A stretch of DNA of 32,418 nt from a virus, in IMG/VR virus record IMGVR_UViG_3300044635_001334, positions 1 to 32,418 of that record; one strand, 5' to 3'. The notes beneath the pieces are model-generated. The model was not told where the DNA came from. It saw nothing but the letters and a program-made list of their open reading frames with translations, and did not search any database. Below are positions 3,966 through 31,998 of the stretch, piece by piece (the stretch's first letter is position 1; each line of letters opens with the position of its first letter). A program made the position numbers and the translations under genes.

Positions 3966-3995
3966 TCACCAATGAGCGACAAGGAGCTGCTTTCT

Positions 3996-4808
3996 ATGAC
4001 AGAAACCCGCGACAATACTTGGTTCCTTACCCTAATGGATGAGGACAAAGCAAATACACTCTACCTCCCTGACGGGATTGGGTACGTGGAGCTGGATGCC
4101 TGTACCGATTTTGACAAGGATGTGGCCCGGATAGCCCGGATATCCACGGGGTCAGAGAACAAGGGGCTGAGAGCCGACCGGAGGCTACTTGCCACCCTGA
4201 TTCGGGAAGACCACGGTTCGCCACTGGAAATGGGGCTGATTCGGTTCAAGATGCAAATGCCACTGTTCCTTGTGGCACAGCTCCTTCGCCACCGTATGGC
4301 AAGCTACAGTCAGCAGTCAGGCCGGTACGTGGCATTTGAGGTTCAGTATTTCACTCCTGGGCCAACTGGGTGGAGACGGCAGGGTAAAGGGAACCGTCAG
4401 ATGTCAGGTGACGGGTTTGACGCCCTTACTTCCAGCCTGATTGAAGAGAACTACCAGAAGAGCGTCAAGCTGGCGGTGAAGACGTACCTGGATATGCTAG
4501 AGGTCGGGGTTGCGCGGGAACAGGCTCGGATAGTATTGCCGCAGTCGGTTTATACTAGCATTTTTGCTCAGTTCAATATGCGCAGCCTGATGAACCTGCT
4601 TCGACTCCGCCTTGCTCCAGATGCGCAGCCGGAGTTTCAGGAGTACGCTAAACTGATGTTCAGCTTCGTGGCGCGTGAATGCCCTAATATGCATCGACTA
4701 CTGACCATTGCGTACGAGGTTGAACAGCGGCTTAAGCCTCAATACCGCGAACTGTGGACGGATTTAATGGCCGAGTGGGATGCGGAGGGGAATAGCGAAC
4801 ACGATTAG
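3996..4808 (+). CDS. thyX: Flavin-dependent thymidylate synthase ThyX, 270 aa
   Basis: ThyX methylates dUMP to dTMP using methylenetetrahydrofolate, FAD and NADPH, supplying thymidylate for phage DNA synthesis. The signature RHR-x7-S is present (RHRMASYSQQSGRY; the usual NEQSGRY is SQQSGRY here), with a typical C-terminal block (ARIVLPQSVYTSIFAQFNMR then SLMNLLRLRL) that binds dUMP and forms the tetramer. An in-frame ATG lies at 3972 but has no ribosome binding site; the ATG at 3996 has AAGGAG nine bases upstream and is preferred. It sits between the HEXXH gene and terL. Length is slightly above the common 220-260 residues. Confidence 0.93.
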   Translation: MTETRDNTWFLTLMDEDKANTLYLPDGIGYVELDACTDFDKDVARIARISTGSENKGLRADRRLLATLIREDHGSPLEMGLIRFKMQMPLFLVAQLLRHRMASYSQQSGRYVAFEVQYFTPGPTGWRRQGKGNRQMSGDGFDALTSSLIEENYQKSVKLAVKTYLDMLEVGVAREQARIVLPQSVYTSIFAQFNMRSLMNLLRLRLAPDAQPEFQEYAKLMFSFVARECPNMHRLLTIAYEVEQRLKPQYRELWTDLMAEWDAEGNSEHD

Positions 4809-6751: not shown

Positions 6752-7144
6752 ATGGGAATTTCGCCGACTCTAGCCCTGATTTGTCTCCTTGGAGCCTTAC
6801 TTGGATGGCAAATCAGGGTGCTTTTAGCCCAAATTCACCGTCTGGAACAAGAAATTGAGAAGTCCCGGCTTCGTGAGCAGCAGATGGTAGACAAACTGCT
6901 CTCCAAGTCGGGATATTCCCCTTTGATGGAGCGGGAACAAGTCATCAAGCTGCCTGACCCCGAGGTCAAACAGCCCGATTTCATAGAATTGGCATTCCGC
7001 GAGGATGCGATTATGGAAGAAGTTGAGATGATGAACCCCGGGATGGCCGGAAGAGGGGTTGAGTACGTGAAACAGATGTACCCAAGCCTCTGGGAAGAGG
7101 CTGAAAAGCGGTTCAATACGCTTCATAACCCAATGAGGTCTTAA
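6752..7144 (+). CDS. Membrane-anchored coiled-coil protein, 130 aa
   Basis: The N-terminus has one hydrophobic segment (about residues 5-24, TLALICLLGALLGWQIRVLL) followed by a charged coiled coil (about 28-50, HRLEQEIEKSRLREQQMVDK). The rest is acidic and helical (EDAIMEEVEMMNPGMAGRG). The topology resembles phage spanin or Rz-like proteins and also small virion proteins; there is no overlapping Rz1-type lipoprotein gene and no endolysin nearby, so I leave it unassigned. The ribosome binding site is poor. Its TAA overlaps the ATG of the fibre gene by one base, implying translational coupling. Confidence 0.6.
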   Translation: MGISPTLALICLLGALLGWQIRVLLAQIHRLEQEIEKSRLREQQMVDKLLSKSGYSPLMEREQVIKLPDPEVKQPDFIELAFREDAIMEEVEMMNPGMAGRGVEYVKQMYPSLWEEAEKRFNTLHNPMRS

Positions 7145-10100
7145 TGGCGGTTGGAACGACCAATTATCCGACAAGTCTGGATACCGTAGTAGAACTGGTA
7201 GAGGCCGCAAATAACGCGGCTGATACTTTAAGTGCCGGTATATCCGCGGGTGATGCGTCTCTAACTCTGGCCGATGCTGCTGAATTTGCCGCTTCCGGTA
7301 TCGTCGCGATTGAGAACGAGCTATTGAGCTATACGGGCAAATCAGGGAGTACCCTGACCGGTTTGACCCGTGGGATTGAAGGCACGACTGCTGCGAGCCA
7401 TAGCAGCGGTGCAGATGTGCGGCAAGTCATTACCGCCGCTTCTCATAACGTCCAATCAGCCGCAATTATTGCCCTTGAGCAAAAGCTCGGGACAGGGACT
7501 GACATTGCTTGGTCGCAAATGTCCCCCTTGACGGCCAATCGTCTTGTCGTAACGGACGGAGCCGGTGACGTAACGGCCTCCCCACTGACGCACGACGCCA
7601 CAAATGCGGTCATTGGTAATATTGGCGGCTTGGATTTTGATACCACGCCCACGGCTACGCCCACGACGGCACGGATGGTCTGGGACGATACGCACGGGAC
7701 GGTCAACCTGACCCTCAAAGGCGGTACGGTAGGGGTTGATATCGGTCAGACCACGGTGGCCCGTGTCGTTAACAAGACCGTCACAAACATCAACCTGCTT
7801 CGGTCAAACTATCAGGTCGTCAGGATTGTATCCGCCCAAGGTCAGCGTCTAGCTATCAGCTTGGCCCAGGGAGACGCTGAACCCAATTCTACTGATGTCA
7901 TTGGGCTAGTTGCGGAAGATATCGCCAATAACCAAGAAGGATTTATTGTCGCCCGTGGTCTGATTACGGAAATCGATACTACCGGCAGCTTGCAAGGCGA
8001 GACTTGGGCTGACGGCGACATTCTTTACCTGTCCCCCACGACGGCGGGTGGGCTGACCAAGGTTGAGCCGCAGGCTCCTGACCACCTGATTATTGTCGGG
8101 TATGTGGTGTACGCTCACTCCCAGCACGGCAAGATTTATGTAGCTATCCAGACCTCGTGGGAAACGAAAGAGCTGCACGATGTCAAGATTACCGGCACTC
8201 CGGTAGCTGGTTCCTTGCTGATACGCAATGCCACGACTGGCGTGTGGGAGAACGCGACTCTTACCGCCGGTTCTAATATTACTATTACAAACGCCGATAA
8301 GAGCATCACGATCGCGGGGACTGGTGGTGTAGCGTCGGTAACGGGCACTTCCCCAGTCGTCTCGTCAGGCGGGTCTACCCCTGCTATCAGCCTTGCGGCA
8401 AACTACGGTGATACCCAAAACCCGTATGCGTCCAAGACGGCCAATAACTTCCTTGCCGCCCCGAATGGAACGGCAGGTGCGCCGACATTTCGGGCCATTG
8501 TTGCTGCTGACATTCCGACCCTGAACCAAAATACAACTGGTACGGCCTCAAACGTAACGGGAACGGTAGCGATTGCAAATGGCGGGACAGGGGCTACAAC
8601 AGCTGGGGCTGCTCGAACAAACCTAGGGGCCACGACGGTTGGTAGCAATCTCTTCACCCTTACTAATCCTAGTGCTGTTACCTTCCCCCGTTTTAATGCG
8701 GACAATACCGTATCAGCATTGACCGATACCGCTTTTAGAACAGCGATTGGCGCAGGAACAGTGACAGGTGTAACTGCTTCATCTCCTTTATCTTCGTCAG
8801 GCGGTGCGACGCCTAATTTGAGTTTGGGCACAGTGCCAGTTGCTAACGGCGGTACGGGTGTAACCACGGTATCTAGCGGACAGTTGTTGATTGGTACGTC
8901 TGCCGGAGGATTTGCGGCATCAACGCTAACCGCTGGGTCAAACGTGACGATTACGAACGGAAGCGGGACTATCACCATTGCGGCTTCTAGCGGGGCTACT
9001 CCGGGTGGGTCGGATACTCAAGTACAGTTCAACGACGGTGGGTCGGCTCTCGGGGGCGATGCTGGCTTTACGTACAATAAGACAACGAACACGGCAACAG
9101 TCGAGCAGCTTAACCTTGGGACGGCTGGTTCAGCTCGTGGCATTCTGCGACTGCGCGGAAATACAAGCGGCGAGATTACGGTACAGCCAGCGGCGACGGC
9201 TGGCACGTACACGCTGACCTTACCGCAGGATGACGGCAACGCCAACCAGGTGCTGACCACAGACGGCACTGGCGTGTTGAGCTGGGCGACTCCGAGCAGC
9301 GGTGGCCGCACCACGCTGACGGCCAATCGCACGTATTATGTGGGCTTTGATTTGGATACTTGCACAGTGACTATTGCGTCGCCGTGCGTCGTTACTCGCA
9401 ATAGTCACGGCCTTGCCGATAACGCGCCCATTGTATTCTCGACCACAGGCGCGTTGCCCACGGGCATTATTGCCGGGGCTGTCTACTATGTCAGAGCTAC
9501 CAACAAGACCACCAACACATTTGAGATATCACTGACCTCCGGTGGCGCGGCGGTGAATACCAGTGGCTCGCAGAGCGGCACTCATCGATTGCGTACTGGG
9601 AATGATACCAACGACGGGTTGACCTCCAGCCGCACCGGGGCATTGCTCACAGTCAACAAGGCTATTGAGCTTGTTACGCTGATTGACTTGGCCGGGTATG
9701 AAGTCACTATACAATTGGCGCGAGGGCGATACACGGATATTATTACCTTACAATCTTATATCGGCAAAGGCCCAGTTACCATTTTAGGCGACACGTCGAC
9801 AGTTAGTAATGTACGATTAGAACCGTATAGCATTGGGGCGGTCACAGCGAATAATACAACGGGTACAATTGATAAAACTTCGCACGGGTTACAGAATGGC
9901 ACACCTATTGGATTTATTGCCTACGTGATTCCGCCGACAGGTTTAACAATGGGGCGAGAGTATTACGTGCAAAACGCCTCAGCTAATTCATTTCAATTAT
10001 GGGATGCTCCATCTGGAGGCAATAGGATTACTTGGACGACAAGTGGCACCAGCGTAGTGGGTGGTTCCTATTGTGTGTTTGCCGATTCCGTGCTGGGCAA

Positions 10101-10575
10101 GTATGTCTTAAAGGGGCTGACTATTGGCACTGGAAATGGTGCCTACGGAATGAAAATTAGCAATTCGTCTTTGGATATTTCAACGTGCGACTTTAACGGC
10201 AACTTTAACAATTATGGGCATGTATGGTGTGAGAGTAATTCCAATATTTACTTTAAGGATTCATGGTCGGTAAGCGTAGGCACCAATAATGATAATATGT
10301 TTTTAGCCTCTGATTCAGGCTACATCAGTATGCGCTTATCTACGTGTACTATTACTGCCTCTATTACCGTAGGTACTGGTAATTTTTTATGGGCCTATCG
10401 CAGCGGTGTGCTACTTGCGGATGCTTGCACTTGGGTCAACGCAAGCAATCTGACCGGTAAACGCGGATTAGCTAGTGTAAATGGTATTTTACGAACCAGC
10501 AGCACATTGACGCCAGGCAATGCCGCGCCAACTACTGCCACCGGTGGTCAATATGAAGATTCAGGAAGTATTTAA
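7144..10575 (+). CDS. Tail fibre/spike protein, 1143 aa
   Basis: The N-terminal ~120 residues (including IENELLSYTGKSGSTLTGLT) and the following beta-rich part (AEDIANNQEGFIVARGLITE) are of the kind seen in phage fibres. The middle is made of fibre repeats: GGTGATTAGAARTNLGA, GGTGVTTVSSGQLLIGTSAG, LTAGSNITITN and LTAGSNVTITN. The C-terminal third contains a spike motif (GNDTNDGLTSSRTGALLTVN) and beta-helix-like rungs, probably the receptor- or glycan-binding end. Two copies of an 'HGL...YYV...F.L' module (from about residues 755 and 920) interrupt the spike. DNA after about 9700 is markedly AT-richer, pointing to exchange. The gene starts in TAATG overlap and ends in TAATG overlap with its XkdW-like neighbour. 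Confidence 0.85.
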   Translation: MAVGTTNYPTSLDTVVELVEAANNAADTLSAGISAGDASLTLADAAEFAASGIVAIENELLSYTGKSGSTLTGLTRGIEGTTAASHSSGADVRQVITAASHNVQSAAIIALEQKLGTGTDIAWSQMSPLTANRLVVTDGAGDVTASPLTHDATNAVIGNIGGLDFDTTPTATPTTARMVWDDTHGTVNLTLKGGTVGVDIGQTTVARVVNKTVTNINLLRSNYQVVRIVSAQGQRLAISLAQGDAEPNSTDVIGLVAEDIANNQEGFIVARGLITEIDTTGSLQGETWADGDILYLSPTTAGGLTKVEPQAPDHLIIVGYVVYAHSQHGKIYVAIQTSWETKELHDVKITGTPVAGSLLIRNATTGVWENATLTAGSNITITNADKSITIAGTGGVASVTGTSPVVSSGGSTPAISLAANYGDTQNPYASKTANNFLAAPNGTAGAPTFRAIVAADIPTLNQNTTGTASNVTGTVAIANGGTGATTAGAARTNLGATTVGSNLFTLTNPSAVTFPRFNADNTVSALTDTAFRTAIGAGTVTGVTASSPLSSSGGATPNLSLGTVPVANGGTGVTTVSSGQLLIGTSAGGFAASTLTAGSNVTITNGSGTITIAASSGATPGGSDTQVQFNDGGSALGGDAGFTYNKTTNTATVEQLNLGTAGSARGILRLRGNTSGEITVQPAATAGTYTLTLPQDDGNANQVLTTDGTGVLSWATPSSGGRTTLTANRTYYVGFDLDTCTVTIASPCVVTRNSHGLADNAPIVFSTTGALPTGIIAGAVYYVRATNKTTNTFEISLTSGGAAVNTSGSQSGTHRLRTGNDTNDGLTSSRTGALLTVNKAIELVTLIDLAGYEVTIQLARGRYTDIITLQSYIGKGPVTILGDTSTVSNVRLEPYSIGAVTANNTTGTIDKTSHGLQNGTPIGFIAYVIPPTGLTMGREYYVQNASANSFQLWDAPSGGNRITWTTSGTSVVGGSYCVFADSVLGKYVLKGLTIGTGNGAYGMKISNSSLDISTCDFNGNFNNYGHVWCESNSNIYFKDSWSVSVGTNNDNMFLASDSGYISMRLSTCTITASITVGTGNFLWAYRSGVLLADACTWVNASNLTGKRGLASVNGILRTSSTLTPGNAAPTTATGGQYEDSGSI

Positions 10576-24761: not shown

Positions 24762-25123
24762 AAGACATTGCAGTGCGTCAGGCCACGCCCGATGAAGCGG
24801 CCCGCCTGACCGAATTGTGGTGTGACGTAAACTGGGGCGTGTATTACGGTGACGAGCTGCTTGCGCTGTTCCAGGCTGAGGATGATGGTGATGGATGGTT
24901 GAATGTACACGCTAACGTGGCCCGTCACCGCCTTCACCCTAAGTTGACCTACTTTTACGCGAAGACGTTTTCCGACCGCCTGCTGGAACTGGGAGCGGTT
25001 GGATTGAAGGCGGAGATAAAAGTGAACCATCGAGCGGCTATCAGGATTGCCAAGGCTGCTGGATATACCGAACAGACCCGGAACGATGAATGGGTCGTAC
25101 TGACGAGGTTGCCAAATGGGTAA
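24731..25123 (+). CDS. GNAT-family N-acetyltransferase-like protein, 130 aa
   Basis: GNATs transfer acetyl from acetyl-CoA to amines. The C-terminal block (LKAEIKVNHRAAIRIAKAAG, then YTEQTRNDEWVVLTR) is the usual final strand-helix-strand 'N-x-x-A-x-x-x-x-x-K-x-G-F' of GNATs; the N-terminal 'IAVRQATPDEAARLTELW' is the typical first strand and helix. The acetyl-CoA loop is less clear (RHRLHPKLTYFYAKTFSDRL). The TTG start at 24731 is supported by GGAG seven bases upstream. Such genes beside phage structural genes may modify virion or host proteins; the target is unknown. Confidence 0.72.
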   Translation: MDVLLDGYHVKDIAVRQATPDEAARLTELWCDVNWGVYYGDELLALFQAEDDGDGWLNVHANVARHRLHPKLTYFYAKTFSDRLLELGAVGLKAEIKVNHRAAIRIAKAAGYTEQTRNDEWVVLTRLPNG

Positions 25124-25580
25124 AGCTAAACCAATGCAGTTGCCGTCTGAGCGGAACTATCAGTATGAAGAATGGAGGCCAAGCGATACCCCTGATATTC
25201 AGGCAATGCGCGAAATGCCAACTGCTCCGCAGACGCTGGCTCCAGCCATAGGGGCGCAGTATGACCGCGCTCAGGAGCTGTCACGGCAGCGATGGAATAA
25301 TGCGTATGGGGGTGGAGTTCCCGAACAGGCTCGTCAGGCGTTGCAGCAGCGCGAGCAGCGCGGCTTGCAGCAGGACTACGGTGCCCTAACTTCTCAGAAT
25401 GCATACGATGCAAATATGGCCAACTTTGCTCGTCGTATGCAGCTTGCCGAGATGACTTTGGGGCGTCCGCTAAATTCACGAATGACAGGGTACGATTCAG
25501 CTCCGACGCAAAGCATTTGGGGCGATATCATCAAAACGGGTGCGCAGGTGGCCGGGGCGGCTGCGGCAGCGGGGGTGTAA
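25116..25580 (+). CDS. Small internal-virion-like protein, copy 1, 154 aa
   Basis: Begins MGKAKPMQLP and is paralogous to the protein at 26057-26593: shared start MGKAKPM-x-LP, shared middle (x-R-R-x-x-LA-x-MT-x-GRPL), shared APT-x-SIW near the C-terminus, which then becomes hydrophobic (IIKTGAQVAGAAAAAGV). Gln/Arg-rich helices form the middle. The hydrophobic Ala/Gly tail suggests membrane interaction, as in ejection proteins. The first 21 bases of both genes are identical. It overlaps GNAT by eight bases and the methyltransferase by one. Confidence 0.65.
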   Translation: MGKAKPMQLPSERNYQYEEWRPSDTPDIQAMREMPTAPQTLAPAIGAQYDRAQELSRQRWNNAYGGGVPEQARQALQQREQRGLQQDYGALTSQNAYDANMANFARRMQLAEMTLGRPLNSRMTGYDSAPTQSIWGDIIKTGAQVAGAAAAAGV

Positions 25581-26044
25581 TGGTAGTACTTTTGACCATT
25601 GTTTTATGGCTGGCAGCGTTTGGGGCAAATATCTTCCTTGCCCCTCAACATACCCTGATAGCGTATCGCGAAGATACGGGACGAGCCAAGCACGTGTTGT
25701 GGGGCTTGATAGCTGCTACGTGCATTGCGGCGTGGTGGGCTGAACCGTTGACGGCCTGGCGACTCATTGGCGGCGTAAGCCTTTTTGCTCTTGGCACGAC
25801 GATAGCCATCAAAGCCTTGCACGATAATCCGTTTTTTCGCGGCGACTTGGTTGCACCGCCTTTTCGGATTACCACGGGCTTGTACAAGTACTTTGACCAT
25901 CCGGGATACCTTGGCTTTTCTATTCGTTTTTTGGGAATCGTGCTGATTGGGGACAATATTGGTAGCGCGATGCTATTTGGCGTGTACCTTAATTTCTTGG
26001 CGTTCAGGGCGGAAATAGAAAACGATTTGCTTGCAGATTTGTAG
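25580..26044 (+). CDS. Isoprenylcysteine methyltransferase-like membrane protein, 154 aa
   Basis: An integral membrane protein with about four hydrophobic segments (1-22, 36-53, 60-78, 112-142). It carries the ICMT/PEMT signature: GLYKYFDHPGYLGF (100-113), where His and Tyr of HP-x-Y bind S-adenosylmethionine, and a later AEIENDLL (144-151), the 'R-x-x-x-E-x-x-L' region. Members methylate small thiols, lipids or prenylcysteine. The ATG at 25580 overlaps the TAA of the upstream gene by one base and is preferred over an upstream in-frame start within it. Finding this enzyme inside a phage virion operon, between two paralogs, is unusual. Substrate unknown. Confidence 0.75.
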   Translation: MVVLLTIVLWLAAFGANIFLAPQHTLIAYREDTGRAKHVLWGLIAATCIAAWWAEPLTAWRLIGGVSLFALGTTIAIKALHDNPFFRGDLVAPPFRITTGLYKYFDHPGYLGFSIRFLGIVLIGDNIGSAMLFGVYLNFLAFRAEIENDLLADL

Positions 26045-26056
26045 GAGAAGACCGAT

Positions 26057-26593
26057 ATGGGTAAAGCTAAACCAATGAAGTTACCGACAGAGCAGACCAC
26101 CCGGTATCAGGAGTGGAAGCCAAGCGAGACGCAAGATACGCAGGCAGCGCGTGGTATATCGGCTATTCCTGAATTTATAGCACCGGCAATGCAGGCCGCT
26201 ATTGACCGTCAGCAGCAGATGGGGAATATGCAAGCGAGTACTGCTTACTCTCAGAATGTACCTAACGCATCCCGACGGATTATGCAAGGGATGGGACAGT
26301 TGATGGGCACGCAGCAATACGGCTCTCAGATGTCCGAAGCAGCCAACGATGCCATGCAAAACAACTTTATGCGCCGGTTGGCCTTGGCGCAAATGACCAT
26401 TGGACGCCCACTGACCAGTCAAACCTCGGGCTATACCAGCGCGCCAACTGAAAGCATTTGGAAGAGCGTTCTGCAAGGCGTGGGAGCTGCGAGCGGCGGC
26501 TTGATGCAGGGAATGAGCGGTAAGATGGGTGGCGGAGCTAGAGGCGCAAGTGGCGGTTCTAGCGGCGGTGGCGGTTCATACTATTACGGCTAA
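26057..26593 (+). CDS. Small internal-virion-like protein, copy 2, 178 aa
   Basis: Paralog of the protein at 25116-25580, with the same MGKAKPM start, RR-x-ALAQMTIGRPLTS middle and SAPTESIW segment. It adds a glycine/serine-rich tail (MGGGARGASGGSSGGGGSYY) ending in Tyr-Gly. Methionine/Gln-rich helices fill the middle. AGGAGA is nine bases upstream of the ATG. The duplication with a membrane enzyme between the copies suggests related virion components, possibly ejected into the host envelope (inference). Confidence 0.65.
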   Translation: MGKAKPMKLPTEQTTRYQEWKPSETQDTQAARGISAIPEFIAPAMQAAIDRQQQMGNMQASTAYSQNVPNASRRIMQGMGQLMGTQQYGSQMSEAANDAMQNNFMRRLALAQMTIGRPLTSQTSGYTSAPTESIWKSVLQGVGAASGGLMQGMSGKMGGGARGASGGSSGGGGSYYYG

Positions 26594-26598
26594 AAGAT

Positions 26599-29500
26599 AT
26601 GATGACAAAAGCAATTAAAGCATTGATGTGCGTGGCCTTGCTGGCAATTTCAGCACGGGCCACCGATGTGACTATTGGTGCGACCACGCAGCCCAACTTC
26701 AATCCTACTGGGTTGCAGGCGGCGACTACTCTGACTGGGGTGACGGTCACTAACGGGACGAATGCCCTTCTGACCTGCGCAGCCTGTTTTAGGCCTCAGT
26801 GGGTTGGAATGGGCGGCTTCTACATCACTGTAGGAGTGCAGAATTACTACGTCAAGAACGTGGACAGCACGTCACAGGTAACGCTGGCCTCGTCCTGCCC
26901 TGAGAGTTCTCCGGCTACCGTGACGTGGCATCCCTACGTGGAGTTTCGGGTATACGCTGACCGTGCCTTTCAGCCATTGGGCAAGAACTACATTGTGCAG
27001 CCGGGAACGCCGGGGACAGGGGCTTGGTATAAGCGGTACGGGGCGTCGGTTATTACCACTAACGGTGTACGCACATTGTACATCCCTGAGCTGGTGATTG
27101 ATGCCACGACGGACGCCGTAGGGCCAACTAATCAGGCTCGATACACTGCGGCGTTCTATCGGCCCGATGGTAGTCTGATTCAGGTATACTCGTGCGCCGA
27201 CCAGTTCAGAGTACCGCCTGTAACGCCGACCAGCTGGGTAGCGTTGTGTCAGTTTAATAGCCCTCCGGCTATCGTTCCACCGGCAAATGAGGCGTACACG
27301 AAAATTCAGATTGATTCTCGGCTTATCTCCTGCTCGGTTGGGCAGATGATTTACTATGCGGCGACGGGTAATCAGCCAACGTGTCTGACCGTGGGCACCG
27401 GCCTGACTATTAGCAACGGGTCAATTTTGACGATTGGCGGCACTCAGCAGGTTATCAATATCGTCACCGACTACAACTGTAGCCCGGTAGACGATGGCGG
27501 CACTGCTGACCAGACGTGTTTCCAGTCGGCCATCAATGCGGCAGCGGCCTCGGGGGGCAAGACCGTCTATGTCCCGACAGGGGTGTACAACGTCTCGGGC
27601 CTGTCCATTCCAGGCGGTGTGACGGTCATTGGTGATGGCCGAAACCGCAGTATTATCAAGTCAGCTACAAATGCGGCTATCGTGTCATTGGTTGAGGGGG
27701 CGGGGTCATATCAGTTTACCGGCCCTGCTATCCGGCAGCTTGGTATCACCGGCCTCGTGACGGCGGGTACATCGCAGGCGGGTATCTACGCTACGGACGA
27801 CAACTATATGTACAACGTTCGAGTGGATAGCGTGGACGTGCTGGATACGGGCGGAGACGGGCTGTTCGTTGGCAAGGTGTACAGCTCGTGGTTCAGCGAC
27901 CTCTACATCTCCAATAATAAGGGCTTTCCGGTGCATTACGATGCAGCGAATATGCCGCAGAACGTCTTTGACAAGATTTACATTGGCCTGCTTCGAACGG
28001 CGCAGACCGGGGCATCCCCTTCCACGGCTCCACAGTGGGAGACGACGGCTTTCCGTATCAAGGCGGGTGAGTTCACCTGCCGTGGCTGTAACGGTGTCAG
28101 TAACGTGATTGGCGGGTCAGCCTGGGCCGTTGTTGGCAAGAAGGCGGCGGTGGACGGGTCAAACGGTGCAGCCAAGTTCACCTGTACTGATTGCAATCTG
28201 GAGAGCTGGGTGGGATATGGCGTCGTGTCCTACTACGGCTCTACGGTCAACCTGCGGGGTCAGACCAAGGTGCAGATGGACAATGCCGGTATTGGTACGG
28301 GTAAGGCTGTTCAGTTTGACCTGGCTAATAACGGGGTGGACTATTTTTCTGAGCTGATTATGCGGGGGTACATTGAAGACACCGTACAGTTCACGAAACA
28401 GGCTTCATCCTACGCCAACAGTCAGGCTATCCACGCTAACGGCATTCCGCCCCTTCAGACGGTTGGCAGTGGCCCAGAGATTGTGACAGCGGGTAGTCCT
28501 GACCGGATTACTACGTTCTACAATTCCACGGCTTCAGCGGTTGGATACCTGGCTCGCGCTGACAGCCTTGCCGAGAAGATTACCGTGACTGCCACTACGA
28601 CCCTGACAGGGCCGGGAGTCCGGTACGTGGAAACGAACTGCGGTTCGGCTTGTACTATCACCATTCCCTGGGCCGGATACTATCAGGTGTCTGATGTCAT
28701 CACGATCAAGGACGTGGGCAGTGCGGCGACCAATAACGTCACTATCAATACGGCGGGTGGCGGGACAATCAACGGCGCGTCCTCGTATGTCTTGAGCCGC
28801 AACAAGGAAGCCTTGGTGCTTCGCGCTGACTCAACCGGTGATTGGCGTATCGTGTCGCTATACCAGCCGAACAGTTATGGCGTGCGTCAGGCGGTGAATG
28901 CGGCGGACTACGGATGCGACTTGGCGGACAACGGGACGAACGACACAGCCTGCCTCGTTGCCGCTATCGCGGCTGCTCAGGCAACGACCGAGAAGGCGTT
29001 GTATTTGCCAGCCGGGACGTACAATACGGACACCATTACCTCCAATATGAATAACCTAAAGGTAATGGGGGACGGGATGATGAAATCTATCATCAAGGCC
29101 CGAGCCACTAATCAGAACGTGTTCAGCCTGACTGGGGCGAGTTTTGCATATCGACTCGTGATGGAGGATATCGGCATCAAGGGAGCCGGTAAGGCAGCGG
29201 GCAGTACCGGCCATTGCGTCTACATCAATGACAATGCTGGTGGCCAGCTTTCCGAGTTCACGTTTCGTCGTTTGCGCGTCACAGATTGCCGCGAGGATGG
29301 TTTCAACGTCTACTACTTGTTTAATGGCATCTTTGAGGGCAATCAGACGGATAGCATTGGCGGTCATCATTACAACCTGGGCGCGGCAAATACCGTCACT
29401 CTGACTGGCAACTACGTGCATACCGTAGAGGCCAACAAGGTTGGGTTTAAGCTGATTGGCGGTCAGTATACGCTTATCGGCAACAACGGTATTGCCCCGA

Positions 29501-30363
29501 ACAGTCCGGCTACGGCCAAGTGGGGTGAGTTCGGTGATAACGCTATTCCGTCGTACTTCCGAGGCACTCTGATTGGCAACAACATAGAAGACATTGGCGA
29601 TATCGGCATCCTGTTCAGGCAGGCAAGCTACGGCGTTTTTCACGGAAACGTGTTTACCACCCGGGCGACCGGTAGCTCTGTTGCCCTGAAGTTTGAATAC
29701 ATTGATAACGAGATGGGTCTATTTGATACGGCAACTAACCGCCTTATTCTTAATAGCCCAGCGACGTGGTCAAATTCGTATCCGATTCACTCTTACCGTC
29801 CGCCGTTTATGGTGTTTGGGGCTACCACGGGCGGCAATGCTTTTCGGTATTACGATACAGCCCTTGCGGCTGTCCGTAACCTTCCGGCTTGGTATGCGGC
29901 CAACGATACAACCGAGGGCGATGTCTTTGCCAAGATGCCTAACCTTGGGGCGGATACGATGCGCCTTGGGGATGGCGGTTCGACGGACGGCAAGCTGGCC
30001 CTACTGAATGCTACGAATAGCAATCGATTGTACTTGAAGGCTGGTACGACCTCTACGACGACCACCTTTACCCTGCCCACGGCGGCTCCGGCGGGTAACG
30101 ATTACCTGCTGAAGAGTTCAACGGCAGGAGTGATGGGTTGGACGACCGTGACGGGGACGGGAAATGCGGTGCTGGCAACTTCTCCAACAATTACATCACC
30201 AATTCTGAATAATACGACGTTTGGTAGCCTGTCTGGCAGTGCGGCGGACGGTACGGTCATTATTTGTACCGATTGCAAGCCAAACGCGACAACTGGCGTG
30301 TGTGAAGGGTCAGGGAACGGTTCGCTCGCTATGCGAATTAGCGGAGCCTGGAAGTGTAACTAG
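26599..30363 (+). CDS. Exported tailspike-like protein with two pectate-lyase-type domains, 1254 aa
   Basis: Residues 1-21 form a Sec signal peptide: basic start (MMTKAIKA), hydrophobic core (LMCVALLAIS), and ARA before TDVTIG. Residues about 22-270 are a beta-rich, cysteine-containing domain. Two beta-helix domains follow, from about 285 (DDGGTADQTCFQSAINAAAA, VYVPTGVYNVSGL) and from about 763 (NGTNDTACLVAAIAAAQATT, LYLPAGTYNTDTI), each with the typical 'A-x-x-A...LPAGTY...GDG...S-I-I' plan of pectate-lyase-like spikes. The fibre repeat GTGNAVLATSPTITSPILNN precedes a C-terminal Cys motif (1223, 1226, 1235, 1253) shared with the gene at 30731. Phage spikes rarely have signal peptides. The ribosome binding site is weak. 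Confidence 0.82.
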   Translation: MMTKAIKALMCVALLAISARATDVTIGATTQPNFNPTGLQAATTLTGVTVTNGTNALLTCAACFRPQWVGMGGFYITVGVQNYYVKNVDSTSQVTLASSCPESSPATVTWHPYVEFRVYADRAFQPLGKNYIVQPGTPGTGAWYKRYGASVITTNGVRTLYIPELVIDATTDAVGPTNQARYTAAFYRPDGSLIQVYSCADQFRVPPVTPTSWVALCQFNSPPAIVPPANEAYTKIQIDSRLISCSVGQMIYYAATGNQPTCLTVGTGLTISNGSILTIGGTQQVINIVTDYNCSPVDDGGTADQTCFQSAINAAAASGGKTVYVPTGVYNVSGLSIPGGVTVIGDGRNRSIIKSATNAAIVSLVEGAGSYQFTGPAIRQLGITGLVTAGTSQAGIYATDDNYMYNVRVDSVDVLDTGGDGLFVGKVYSSWFSDLYISNNKGFPVHYDAANMPQNVFDKIYIGLLRTAQTGASPSTAPQWETTAFRIKAGEFTCRGCNGVSNVIGGSAWAVVGKKAAVDGSNGAAKFTCTDCNLESWVGYGVVSYYGSTVNLRGQTKVQMDNAGIGTGKAVQFDLANNGVDYFSELIMRGYIEDTVQFTKQASSYANSQAIHANGIPPLQTVGSGPEIVTAGSPDRITTFYNSTASAVGYLARADSLAEKITVTATTTLTGPGVRYVETNCGSACTITIPWAGYYQVSDVITIKDVGSAATNNVTINTAGGGTINGASSYVLSRNKEALVLRADSTGDWRIVSLYQPNSYGVRQAVNAADYGCDLADNGTNDTACLVAAIAAAQATTEKALYLPAGTYNTDTITSNMNNLKVMGDGMMKSIIKARATNQNVFSLTGASFAYRLVMEDIGIKGAGKAAGSTGHCVYINDNAGGQLSEFTFRRLRVTDCREDGFNVYYLFNGIFEGNQTDSIGGHHYNLGAANTVTLTGNYVHTVEANKVGFKLIGGQYTLIGNNGIAPNSPATAKWGEFGDNAIPSYFRGTLIGNNIEDIGDIGILFRQASYGVFHGNVFTTRATGSSVALKFEYIDNEMGLFDTATNRLILNSPATWSNSYPIHSYRPPFMVFGATTGGNAFRYYDTALAAVRNLPAWYAANDTTEGDVFAKMPNLGADTMRLGDGGSTDGKLALLNATNSNRLYLKAGTTSTTTTFTLPTAAPAGNDYLLKSSTAGVMGWTTVTGTGNAVLATSPTITSPILNNTTFGSLSGSAADGTVIICTDCKPNATTGVCEGSGNGSLAMRISGAWKCN

Positions 30364-30372
30364 GAGGTTCAT

Positions 30373-30723
30373 ATGGCTGGAACGGTAGGATATAAATTTA
30401 AGCCGGCTGACCCTGAAGGGGCCAGCCTGAACGCAGCGACGACGGGTACTGGGCGAGCAATTCCAATGCAGGAATGCCGTCAGATTGTATGGACGGTAGA
30501 GGGTACTGGAACCATTTCTGGGGGTACGGTAGTCGTGGAGACAGCTGATTCCATTGACTATTCTGGAACGTGGTACGAGCTGGACTCTATTAGCCCCACC
30601 AGCAATGCGGCTACCGCAGGTACTTACCCGGCTGCTTCGTCGGGGTTCGTTCGCGCTCGTGTCACCTCTAACATTACGGGTGGCGGTTCGGTGACGGTTC
30701 GGATTAACGGTCTGATTTCGTAG
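30373..30723 (+). CDS. Small beta-rich protein, 116 aa
   Basis: A short protein rich in Thr, Gly and Val with strand pattern (IVWTVEGTGTISGGTVVVET, FVRARVTSNITGGGSVTVRI) that would fold as a beta-sandwich. No signal peptide is present, unlike its neighbours. GGAGG lies six bases before the ATG, overlapping the spike's stop region. It may be a small structural partner of the spike or a fibre tip. No family recognised. Confidence 0.6.
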   Translation: MAGTVGYKFKPADPEGASLNAATTGTGRAIPMQECRQIVWTVEGTGTISGGTVVVETADSIDYSGTWYELDSISPTSNAATAGTYPAASSGFVRARVTSNITGGGSVTVRINGLIS

Positions 30724-30730
30724 GAGAGAT

Positions 30731-31402
30731 ATGAAAGCTGTTTTCTTTTGCTTGTATTTGATGGCGGGGTCAGTGGTCGGTTTTGCCCAGGGCACTCCGC
30801 CCCTTACCGTGCGTGAGGTGGACAATAGCCCCCGGAAGTCGGGCATTAACACCTTGGTGTTTCCCAACGGGTCAGTGACAGTTACCGGCTCCACGGCGAC
30901 TATTACCGCCGGAGTGTCAGGGCTGACCAGCACGGAGTCTTTGATTACCTCGTCTGTCAACTTTCGAGTGCCCGGTTCAGGCGGGTCAGCAGGTACGGCC
31001 AACTTGCAGCTTGGGGCAGCGGGAAATGGCTTGTACATTACTGGGGCGTTGCTTGCTGTTACGTCTTCTGGTGCTGCGTCTATGGCTTGGAGCGGTGCTA
31101 CTGGGGATACCGTTGTAAACGGGTCTTATCAGTTCGTATTTGGTAGTTCCGGCTTTAGTTCGCCCGATGTGGGTTTTACTCGCTCTAGCGCGAACGTCCT
31201 ACGACTGTCCAACGCCTCATCAGGTTTTGGGACGTTGTACTCGGGTGGGGTGCGGCTGGAAGGGGTTACGTTTGCTAACCTCGGCACTCCGTCTAACGGC
31301 ACGCTAGTGTTCTGCTCTGATTGTAAGGCGTCGCAGCCGTGTAGTACGGGGACAACTGGAGCGTTAGCTTTTAGGCGAAACAGCGAATGGATATGCTACT
31401 AA
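30731..31402 (+). CDS. Exported protein sharing the spike's C-terminal Cys motif, 223 aa
   Basis: Begins with a signal peptide (MKAVFFCLYLMAGSVVGFAQ; likely cleavage after GFA). The mature part is a fibre-like beta protein (ESLITSSVNFRVPGSGGSAG, NLQLGAAGNGLYITGALLAV) and ends with C195-x2-C198-x5-C204-x17-C222 within 'NGTLVFCSDCK...GALAFRRNSEWIC', the same block as the end of the 1254-residue spike. The ribosome binding site is AGGAGA. Likely secreted through Sec with disulfide formation in the periplasm. It overlaps the next gene by 16 bases. Function unknown; it may assemble with the spike. Confidence 0.72.
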   Translation: MKAVFFCLYLMAGSVVGFAQGTPPLTVREVDNSPRKSGINTLVFPNGSVTVTGSTATITAGVSGLTSTESLITSSVNFRVPGSGGSAGTANLQLGAAGNGLYITGALLAVTSSGAASMAWSGATGDTVVNGSYQFVFGSSGFSSPDVGFTRSSANVLRLSNASSGFGTLYSGGVRLEGVTFANLGTPSNGTLVFCSDCKASQPCSTGTTGALAFRRNSEWICY

Positions 31403-31998
31403 GACTTGTAATAATTACCTTACTCCTGACGGGTACAGCTTTCAGTCAGGACGTGTTCAGTATTTATTCCCGCCTTGCCCCGCCGTCACCTACTAGTGGC
31501 AACGGGGCGCAGGTGGGAATAGGCATTGATACGGTCATTCACACGGGACAGTATGTAATGCTGGACGTGGACGCGAGCTTGGTGCGCGAGCCGAAGTCCT
31601 ACGTTGGCAACGGGTGGACGGTAAGAGGGCAAGCCGAGGGGTTGGTTAGGCTCGGTGACTGGCATGTTGGTGGCGGTATGACGAGCGGTCGTCATATGAA
31701 CTCGGCGTACAGTAAAAACCAGTTCCAGCCGCTCATTTCTTTGCACTATCGGCCTCACTTGCTTCTGGATATGTACGGCGTGTACCTGCCTCGGGCATTC
31801 GGCAATGACAACGGGGTGCAGGGCTGGCGAGCAGGATACCGAGGTGTCCTTCGTGCTGCCCCGTCTAGCCCGTATGGAATGTTTGTTCAGGTCGAATTTA
31901 CGCAGTACAGATTTCAAACAGCCTTTGGTGATAAGCGTTCAGCCACGGGCATCGTGACAGGCATTGGTCTTAGTCGCATTGTTGAAAAAATACGGTAA
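31387..31998 (+). CDS. Exported outer-membrane beta-barrel-like protein, 203 aa
   Basis: A signal peptide (MDMLLRLVIITLLLTGTAFS) precedes a sequence of alternating hydrophobic/polar residues typical of outer-membrane strands (YVMLDVDASLVREP, WTVRGQAEGLVRLGDWHVGG, QPLISLHYRPHLLLDMYGVY, WRAGYRGVLRAA, MFVQVEFTQYRF, SATGIVTGIGLSRI). This fits an eight-strand or similar small barrel. There is no canonical C-terminal Phe (it ends SRIVEKIR). The start overlaps the upstream gene by 16 bases; AGGCG is its only ribosome binding site-like sequence. Possible roles: superinfection exclusion or host envelope change. Confidence 0.62.
   Translation: MDMLLRLVIITLLLTGTAFSQDVFSIYSRLAPPSPTSGNGAQVGIGIDTVIHTGQYVMLDVDASLVREPKSYVGNGWTVRGQAEGLVRLGDWHVGGGMTSGRHMNSAYSKNQFQPLISLHYRPHLLLDMYGVYLPRAFGNDNGVQGWRAGYRGVLRAAPSSPYGMFVQVEFTQYRFQTAFGDKRSATGIVTGIGLSRIVEKIR

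Follow-up and report, generated by a model that had tools for sequence, protein, structure and literature searches.

Predicted Sec signal peptides and a conserved four-cysteine domain on spike and fibre proteins of tailed phages

Described phage adhesins and exported phage proteins

The adhesins of tailed phages are assumed to fold in the cytoplasm, and the well-known tail spikes, to our knowledge, carry no signal peptide. The closest described family to the spike considered here is that of the pectate-lyase/beta-helix tail spikes (PF12708; PHROG 2234, 7458 and 12123), which it resembles in fold family, in its neighbourhood of structural genes and in its pattern of a conserved N-terminal and a divergent C-terminal part. 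It differs from them by the addition of an N-terminal Sec signal and a C-terminal domain with four cysteines. Exported phage proteins as such are already on record. Lom of phage lambda, one of the Ail/Lom outer-membrane proteins, is exported and encoded beside tail adhesin genes (PMC12309495), and the Nixviridae phages of P. gingivalis encode Q-rule proteins that are exported, have Sec signals with Gln at +1 and are of unknown function (PMC10367356). The latter have not been reported as spikes, whereas the proteins treated here are spike or fibre proteins with one domain in common; in lambda, unlike here, the spike itself is not the exported component. A further counterpart is the deposited genome of an uncultured phage, MW202444.1 (isolate ctLpZ231), considered below. 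No report of Sec-exported tail spikes was found in the literature searched, a weak negative, as subscription journals mostly lay outside its coverage. The suggestion in a preliminary description of this locus that it reflects an undescribed phage strategy thus holds, within that literature, for exported spikes and fails for phage protein export in general.

Predicted exported genes of the window

The window, a 32,418-base IMG/VR virus record analysed over its whole length, belongs to a tailed phage and contains terminase, portal and major head protein genes. Sec signal peptides were called with a rule-based caller calibrated on E. coli proteins; it recognised 15 of the 16 known E. coli signal peptides tried and, in a set of 42 E. 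coli genes, called another 6 (two signal-like N-termini, three inner-membrane proteins and one clearly cytoplasmic protein). Among the approximately 31 genes of the window, exactly three were called, ORF1, ORF3 and ORF4, and the other 28 or so gave no call. ORF1 and ORF3 have the n-, h- and c-regions and cleavage site expected of Sec/signal peptidase I substrates, and so does ORF4 when read from its second Met, with a cut site placed by eye. The preliminary description had listed four consecutive rightward genes, three of them with Sec signals, and all four genes and all three signals were recovered at the positions given. Its label of a four-gene exported cluster is nevertheless wrong for the group as one unit: only three of the four genes qualify, because ORF2 has no signal, and ORF3 and ORF4 are missing from the nearest relative.

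ORF1 (26599..30363, + strand) encodes a predicted exported tail spike of 1254 aa, and its identification as a spike was borne out by profile matches to the PF12708 pectate-lyase fold (1.4e-18), Beta_helix (2.2e-8) and the PHROG tail spike phrog_7458 (8e-8). A solved relative by sequence is the beta-helix of a poly(beta-D-mannuronate) C5 epimerase (2pyg, 3e-5). A predicted signal peptide at residues 1-21 (26599..26661, + strand; ..AISARA^TDVTIG) is followed by an N-domain at about 22-245, beta-helix regions at about 289-442 and 776-1021 and, at the C-terminus, the four-Cys domain (30265..30360, + strand), with CTDC at 1223-1226, C1235 and C1253. A single-protein scan with the whole spike gave no confirmed relatives on viral contigs; queries with the portal and major head proteins retrieved two. 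One of these, G001 (record 3300045125_000070), has a portal 92% identical to that of the window phage and a spike with its own signal (MRFIKIAFIALCLTVSAKA^TDVTIG). The two signals agree at 7/20 positions (35%) and retain the same features, whereas the next 128 mature residues agree at 117/128 (91%); farther on, the C-terminal part of the spike diverges. Such free drift with the hydrophobic pattern kept is expected of a signal that is discarded, not of a part of the virion. Many genes of the G001 record (L002/L004) have apparent frameshifts, as in uncorrected long reads, and these were left unmended.

ORF2 (30373..30723, + strand; 116 aa) resembles a small beta protein by eye and is kept in G001 together with the signal-bearing spike. 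ORF3 (30731..31402, + strand; 223 aa) is a short fibre-like protein with a predicted cut at ..VVGFA^QGTPP; an EVDGSP-type fibre module opens its mature part, and its only mature cysteines are the four of its C-terminal domain. ORF4 (31387..31998, + strand; 203 aa, or 201 from the second Met at 31393) starts within the end of ORF3, has a predicted cut at ..TGTAFS^QDVF and contains no mature cysteine. Since G001 lacks both genes, the four-gene order does not extend even to the nearest relative, and ORF3 and ORF4 are an optional overlapping cassette. Single-protein scans with either protein gave no confirmed relatives on viral contigs.

ORF4 resembles Lom in its predicted export and its place by adhesin genes. 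The earlier proposal of an OMP-like barrel found no support: searches of Pfam (nothing at E<=1, hence no Ail/Lom match either) and PHROG detected no family, an AlphaFold2 model made without homologues had a pLDDT of 30, the C-terminus (..VEKIR) is not aromatic, and strand alternation gave p=0.09 in a low-powered test that the OmpX control failed too. ORF4 may be an exported partner co-translated with ORF3, an arrangement that recalls fibre-plus-partner pairs such as Stf/Tfa.

Elsewhere in the window, a phospholipid/isoprenylcysteine-type methyltransferase gene (25517-26044; PEMT, 2.6e-9) is flanked by genes for two paralogous MGKAKPM proteins (25116-25580 and 26057-26593), and a ThyX-type thymidylate synthase is encoded at 3972-4808 (Thy1, 7.1e-47).

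A four-cysteine domain shared among phages

The C-terminal Cys motif that had been noticed in two of the exported proteins is real, reading ICTDC..VC..GNGSLAMR..WKC in ORF1 and FCSDC..PC..TTGALAFR..WIC in ORF3. The likeness is far above chance, because a domain with four invariant cysteines ends dozens of other phage proteins. These were collected from a three-row alignment through one scan each of IMG/VR and GTDB, and then by a DNA pattern scan, which found the motif in 40 IMG/VR stretches with a pattern that permitted Gly at the second Cys and omitted the fourth. Over 41 aligned rows, the four Cys, Gly39, Asp46 and Gly59 are invariant. In most members the domain is the end of the protein; it also occurs internally and in signal-less proteins, and one protein (L053:9114-10949) has it twice, with one copy close to the N-terminus and another at the C-terminus. 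An AlphaFold2 model built with 38 rows predicts a compact beta domain, with mean pLDDT mostly 83-93 over the last 55 or so residues of ORF3. Foldseek gave the C-terminal domain model weak matches to podoviral tail fibres and spikes in BFVD, while fold and sequence searches of the PDB with the domain returned nothing significant, and no Pfam or PDB family was found for it. Zinc binding by the four cysteines is the less likely reading: weak treble-clef matches in 2 of the 41 rows would fit it, but the bias towards even Cys counts described below favours disulphides.

Signal-bearing, Cys-tipped spikes and fibres recur in many unrelated tailed phages and are not peculiar to the window phage. Proteins from L042, L027 and L048 match PHROG tail spikes, those from L042, L047 and L027 match PF12708 (L048 more weakly), and motif genes have as neighbours genes for the major head protein (L043, L051), portal (L032, L046) or tape measure (L042). 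A tblastn search of 50,697 deposited phages found one record with the motif, MW202444.1, in which a 1254-aa signal-bearing protein, annotated as hypothetical, has the same C-terminal domain and a related N-domain (30.6% identity to that of ORF1 over 134 aa, E 7e-9). The 1234 residues of its mature form contain no Cys other than the domain's four, and no other long fibre-like protein was seen within the stretch read; its genome differs in layout from the window and encodes a tape-measure-like protein. There, as in L046, L032 and L052, the motif gene is overlapped or abutted by a signal-bearing next ORF. A signal-bearing downstream candidate follows 13 of 41 motif genes, and an enrichment of signals in ORFs adjoining motif genes (9/42 against 20/198 elsewhere; p=0.06) is suggestive. 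Tandem paralogous signal-bearing fibre proteins are encoded by L050:7066-8073 and the next gene, and L013 has two related signal-bearing fibres within its tail module; compared with cultured phages, these fibres had no full homologue free of a signal.

Among motif ORFs whose 5' end is intact, 28/32 are signal-bearing (27/32 without the weak L029 call), as against 69/374 control ORFs of the same loci (Fisher 4e-14, computed with 27/32), both sets having been put through the same generous start search. With 4-5 of the 32 motif proteins signal-less, the domain does not require export. Nor is the pairing of signal and domain one inherited gene, since mature N-terminal regions mostly go unmatched: among the matches listed, mutual BLAST matches beyond the Cys domain occur only in a few related sets. 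Of 13 loci scanned for the EVDGSP module, 12 encode phage proteins that have it without a signal, and at one (L071) it comes directly after a signal, which suggests that fibre blocks can acquire a signal that they lack in other phages.

Cut sites predicted without use of Gln place this residue at +1 in 19 of 33 cases, a preference described for signal peptidase I sites in Bacteroidetes (PMC5837995). A Bacteroidetes host is not inferred, because in GTDB the motif is confined to two contigs, from a Myxococcales and a Deltaproteobacteria MAG, and the main text of that paper mentions neither Acidobacteria nor Proteobacteria. In 284 genomes of the Myxococcales MAG's phylum, the motif pattern occurred in that MAG alone. 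The +1 residue is Gln in ORF3, Gln in ORF4 if the cut follows AFS, and Thr in ORF1, the Q-rule being a Bacteroidetes rule that may not be the host's. A second line of evidence comes from cysteine counts, which are expected to be even where disulphides form. Even-to-odd ratios are 22:8 in exported motif proteins and 17:6 in other signal-bearing ORFs, against 74:72 in signal-less ORFs; the even bias is thus confined to exported ORFs (pooled Fisher p=0.006). Judged from sequence, these proteins are very probably exported and cleaved, and oxidative folding of the exported motif proteins is a well supported prediction; for the four-Cys domain of ORF1 and ORF3 in particular, disulphide pairing is only weakly indicated.

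Possible roles: extracytoplasmic spikes or an altered host surface

The best reading of ORF1 and ORF3, at roughly even odds, is that of Sec-exported, disulphide-stapled receptor-binding spikes. Such spike or fibre proteins would start with a cleavable Sec signal, which signal peptidase I removes once they have been translocated, and would fold only after leaving the cytoplasm, with disulphides forming among the four C-terminal cysteines and probably among others in ORF1. A bacterial export signal on spike and fibre proteins makes it probable that these attachment proteins fold extracytoplasmically. The spike could then be held in the periplasm or ghost and added to particles at lysis, a step that has about an even chance of being right. 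We know of no way for a tailed phage to acquire spikes from the periplasm, and an outer-membrane translocation signal was looked for and not recognised. The likeliest rival, somewhat short of even odds, is that the exported spike, the short fibre and ORF4 either remain attached to the infected cell or are released from it and remodel its envelope, by exclusion of other phages, digestion of capsule or EPS, or changed adhesion. The virion would then use the conventional tail fibre encoded between the terminase and portal genes (7144..10575, + strand; 1143 aa, signal-less), whose N-terminal half is conserved and C-terminal half divergent in G001. Given this fibre, ORF1 need not be the virion adhesin; the cleavable signals, the optional overlapping ORF3/ORF4 pair, the presence, at roughly a third of the loci, of a signal-bearing gene downstream of the motif gene and the precedents of Lom (PMC12309495) and the P. 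gingivalis phages (PMC10367356) also fit remodelling. Against it, the spikes sit in structural modules at the position of fibre genes, their conserved N-domain and divergent C-terminal part are those of virion-anchored spikes, and MW202444.1 offers no alternative long fibre in the stretch read. Both readings of the preliminary description, envelope remodelling and a spike assembled outside the cytoplasm, therefore survive, with gene position, spike homology and recurrence in unrelated phages slightly favouring virion use, and the signal-less fibre and ORF4 weighing on the other side.

Much less probable is that the hydrophobic N-terminus is an uncleaved virion anchor or membrane-penetrating segment that merely resembles a signal peptide. 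Tailed-phage spikes are normally cytoplasmic, and the segment does lie at the extreme N-terminus; the Gln preference at predicted cuts, the cysteine parity, the drift of the segment in G001 and the fact that small, unrelated neighbours bear a segment of this kind too all speak for cleavage instead. Less probable still is that the domain serves in C-terminal sorting or anchoring, in the manner of T9SS or CTERM tags, and is no tip domain. Although most signal-bearing members have the domain at the very C-terminus, this idea was rejected in view of the internal copies, the double copy in L053, the signal-less carriers, the absence of a hydrophobic-plus-basic tail, the compact modelled beta domain and the lack of any NCBIfam or Pfam sorting-model match to the motif.

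What emerges is a recurrent class of adhesins in uncultured phages that combines predicted cleavable export signals with a conserved cysteine tip, and the four-Cys motif is a handle for finding further cases. Either part of virion assembly takes place outside the cytoplasm in these phages, or spare spikes are exported to alter the host surface. Tentatively, tailed phages of uncultured hosts may add Sec-exported, disulphide-bonded spikes to their virions outside the cytoplasm at lysis, with the four-Cys tip as a marker; if so, lysis-time spike addition would be an assembly route undescribed for Caudoviricetes.
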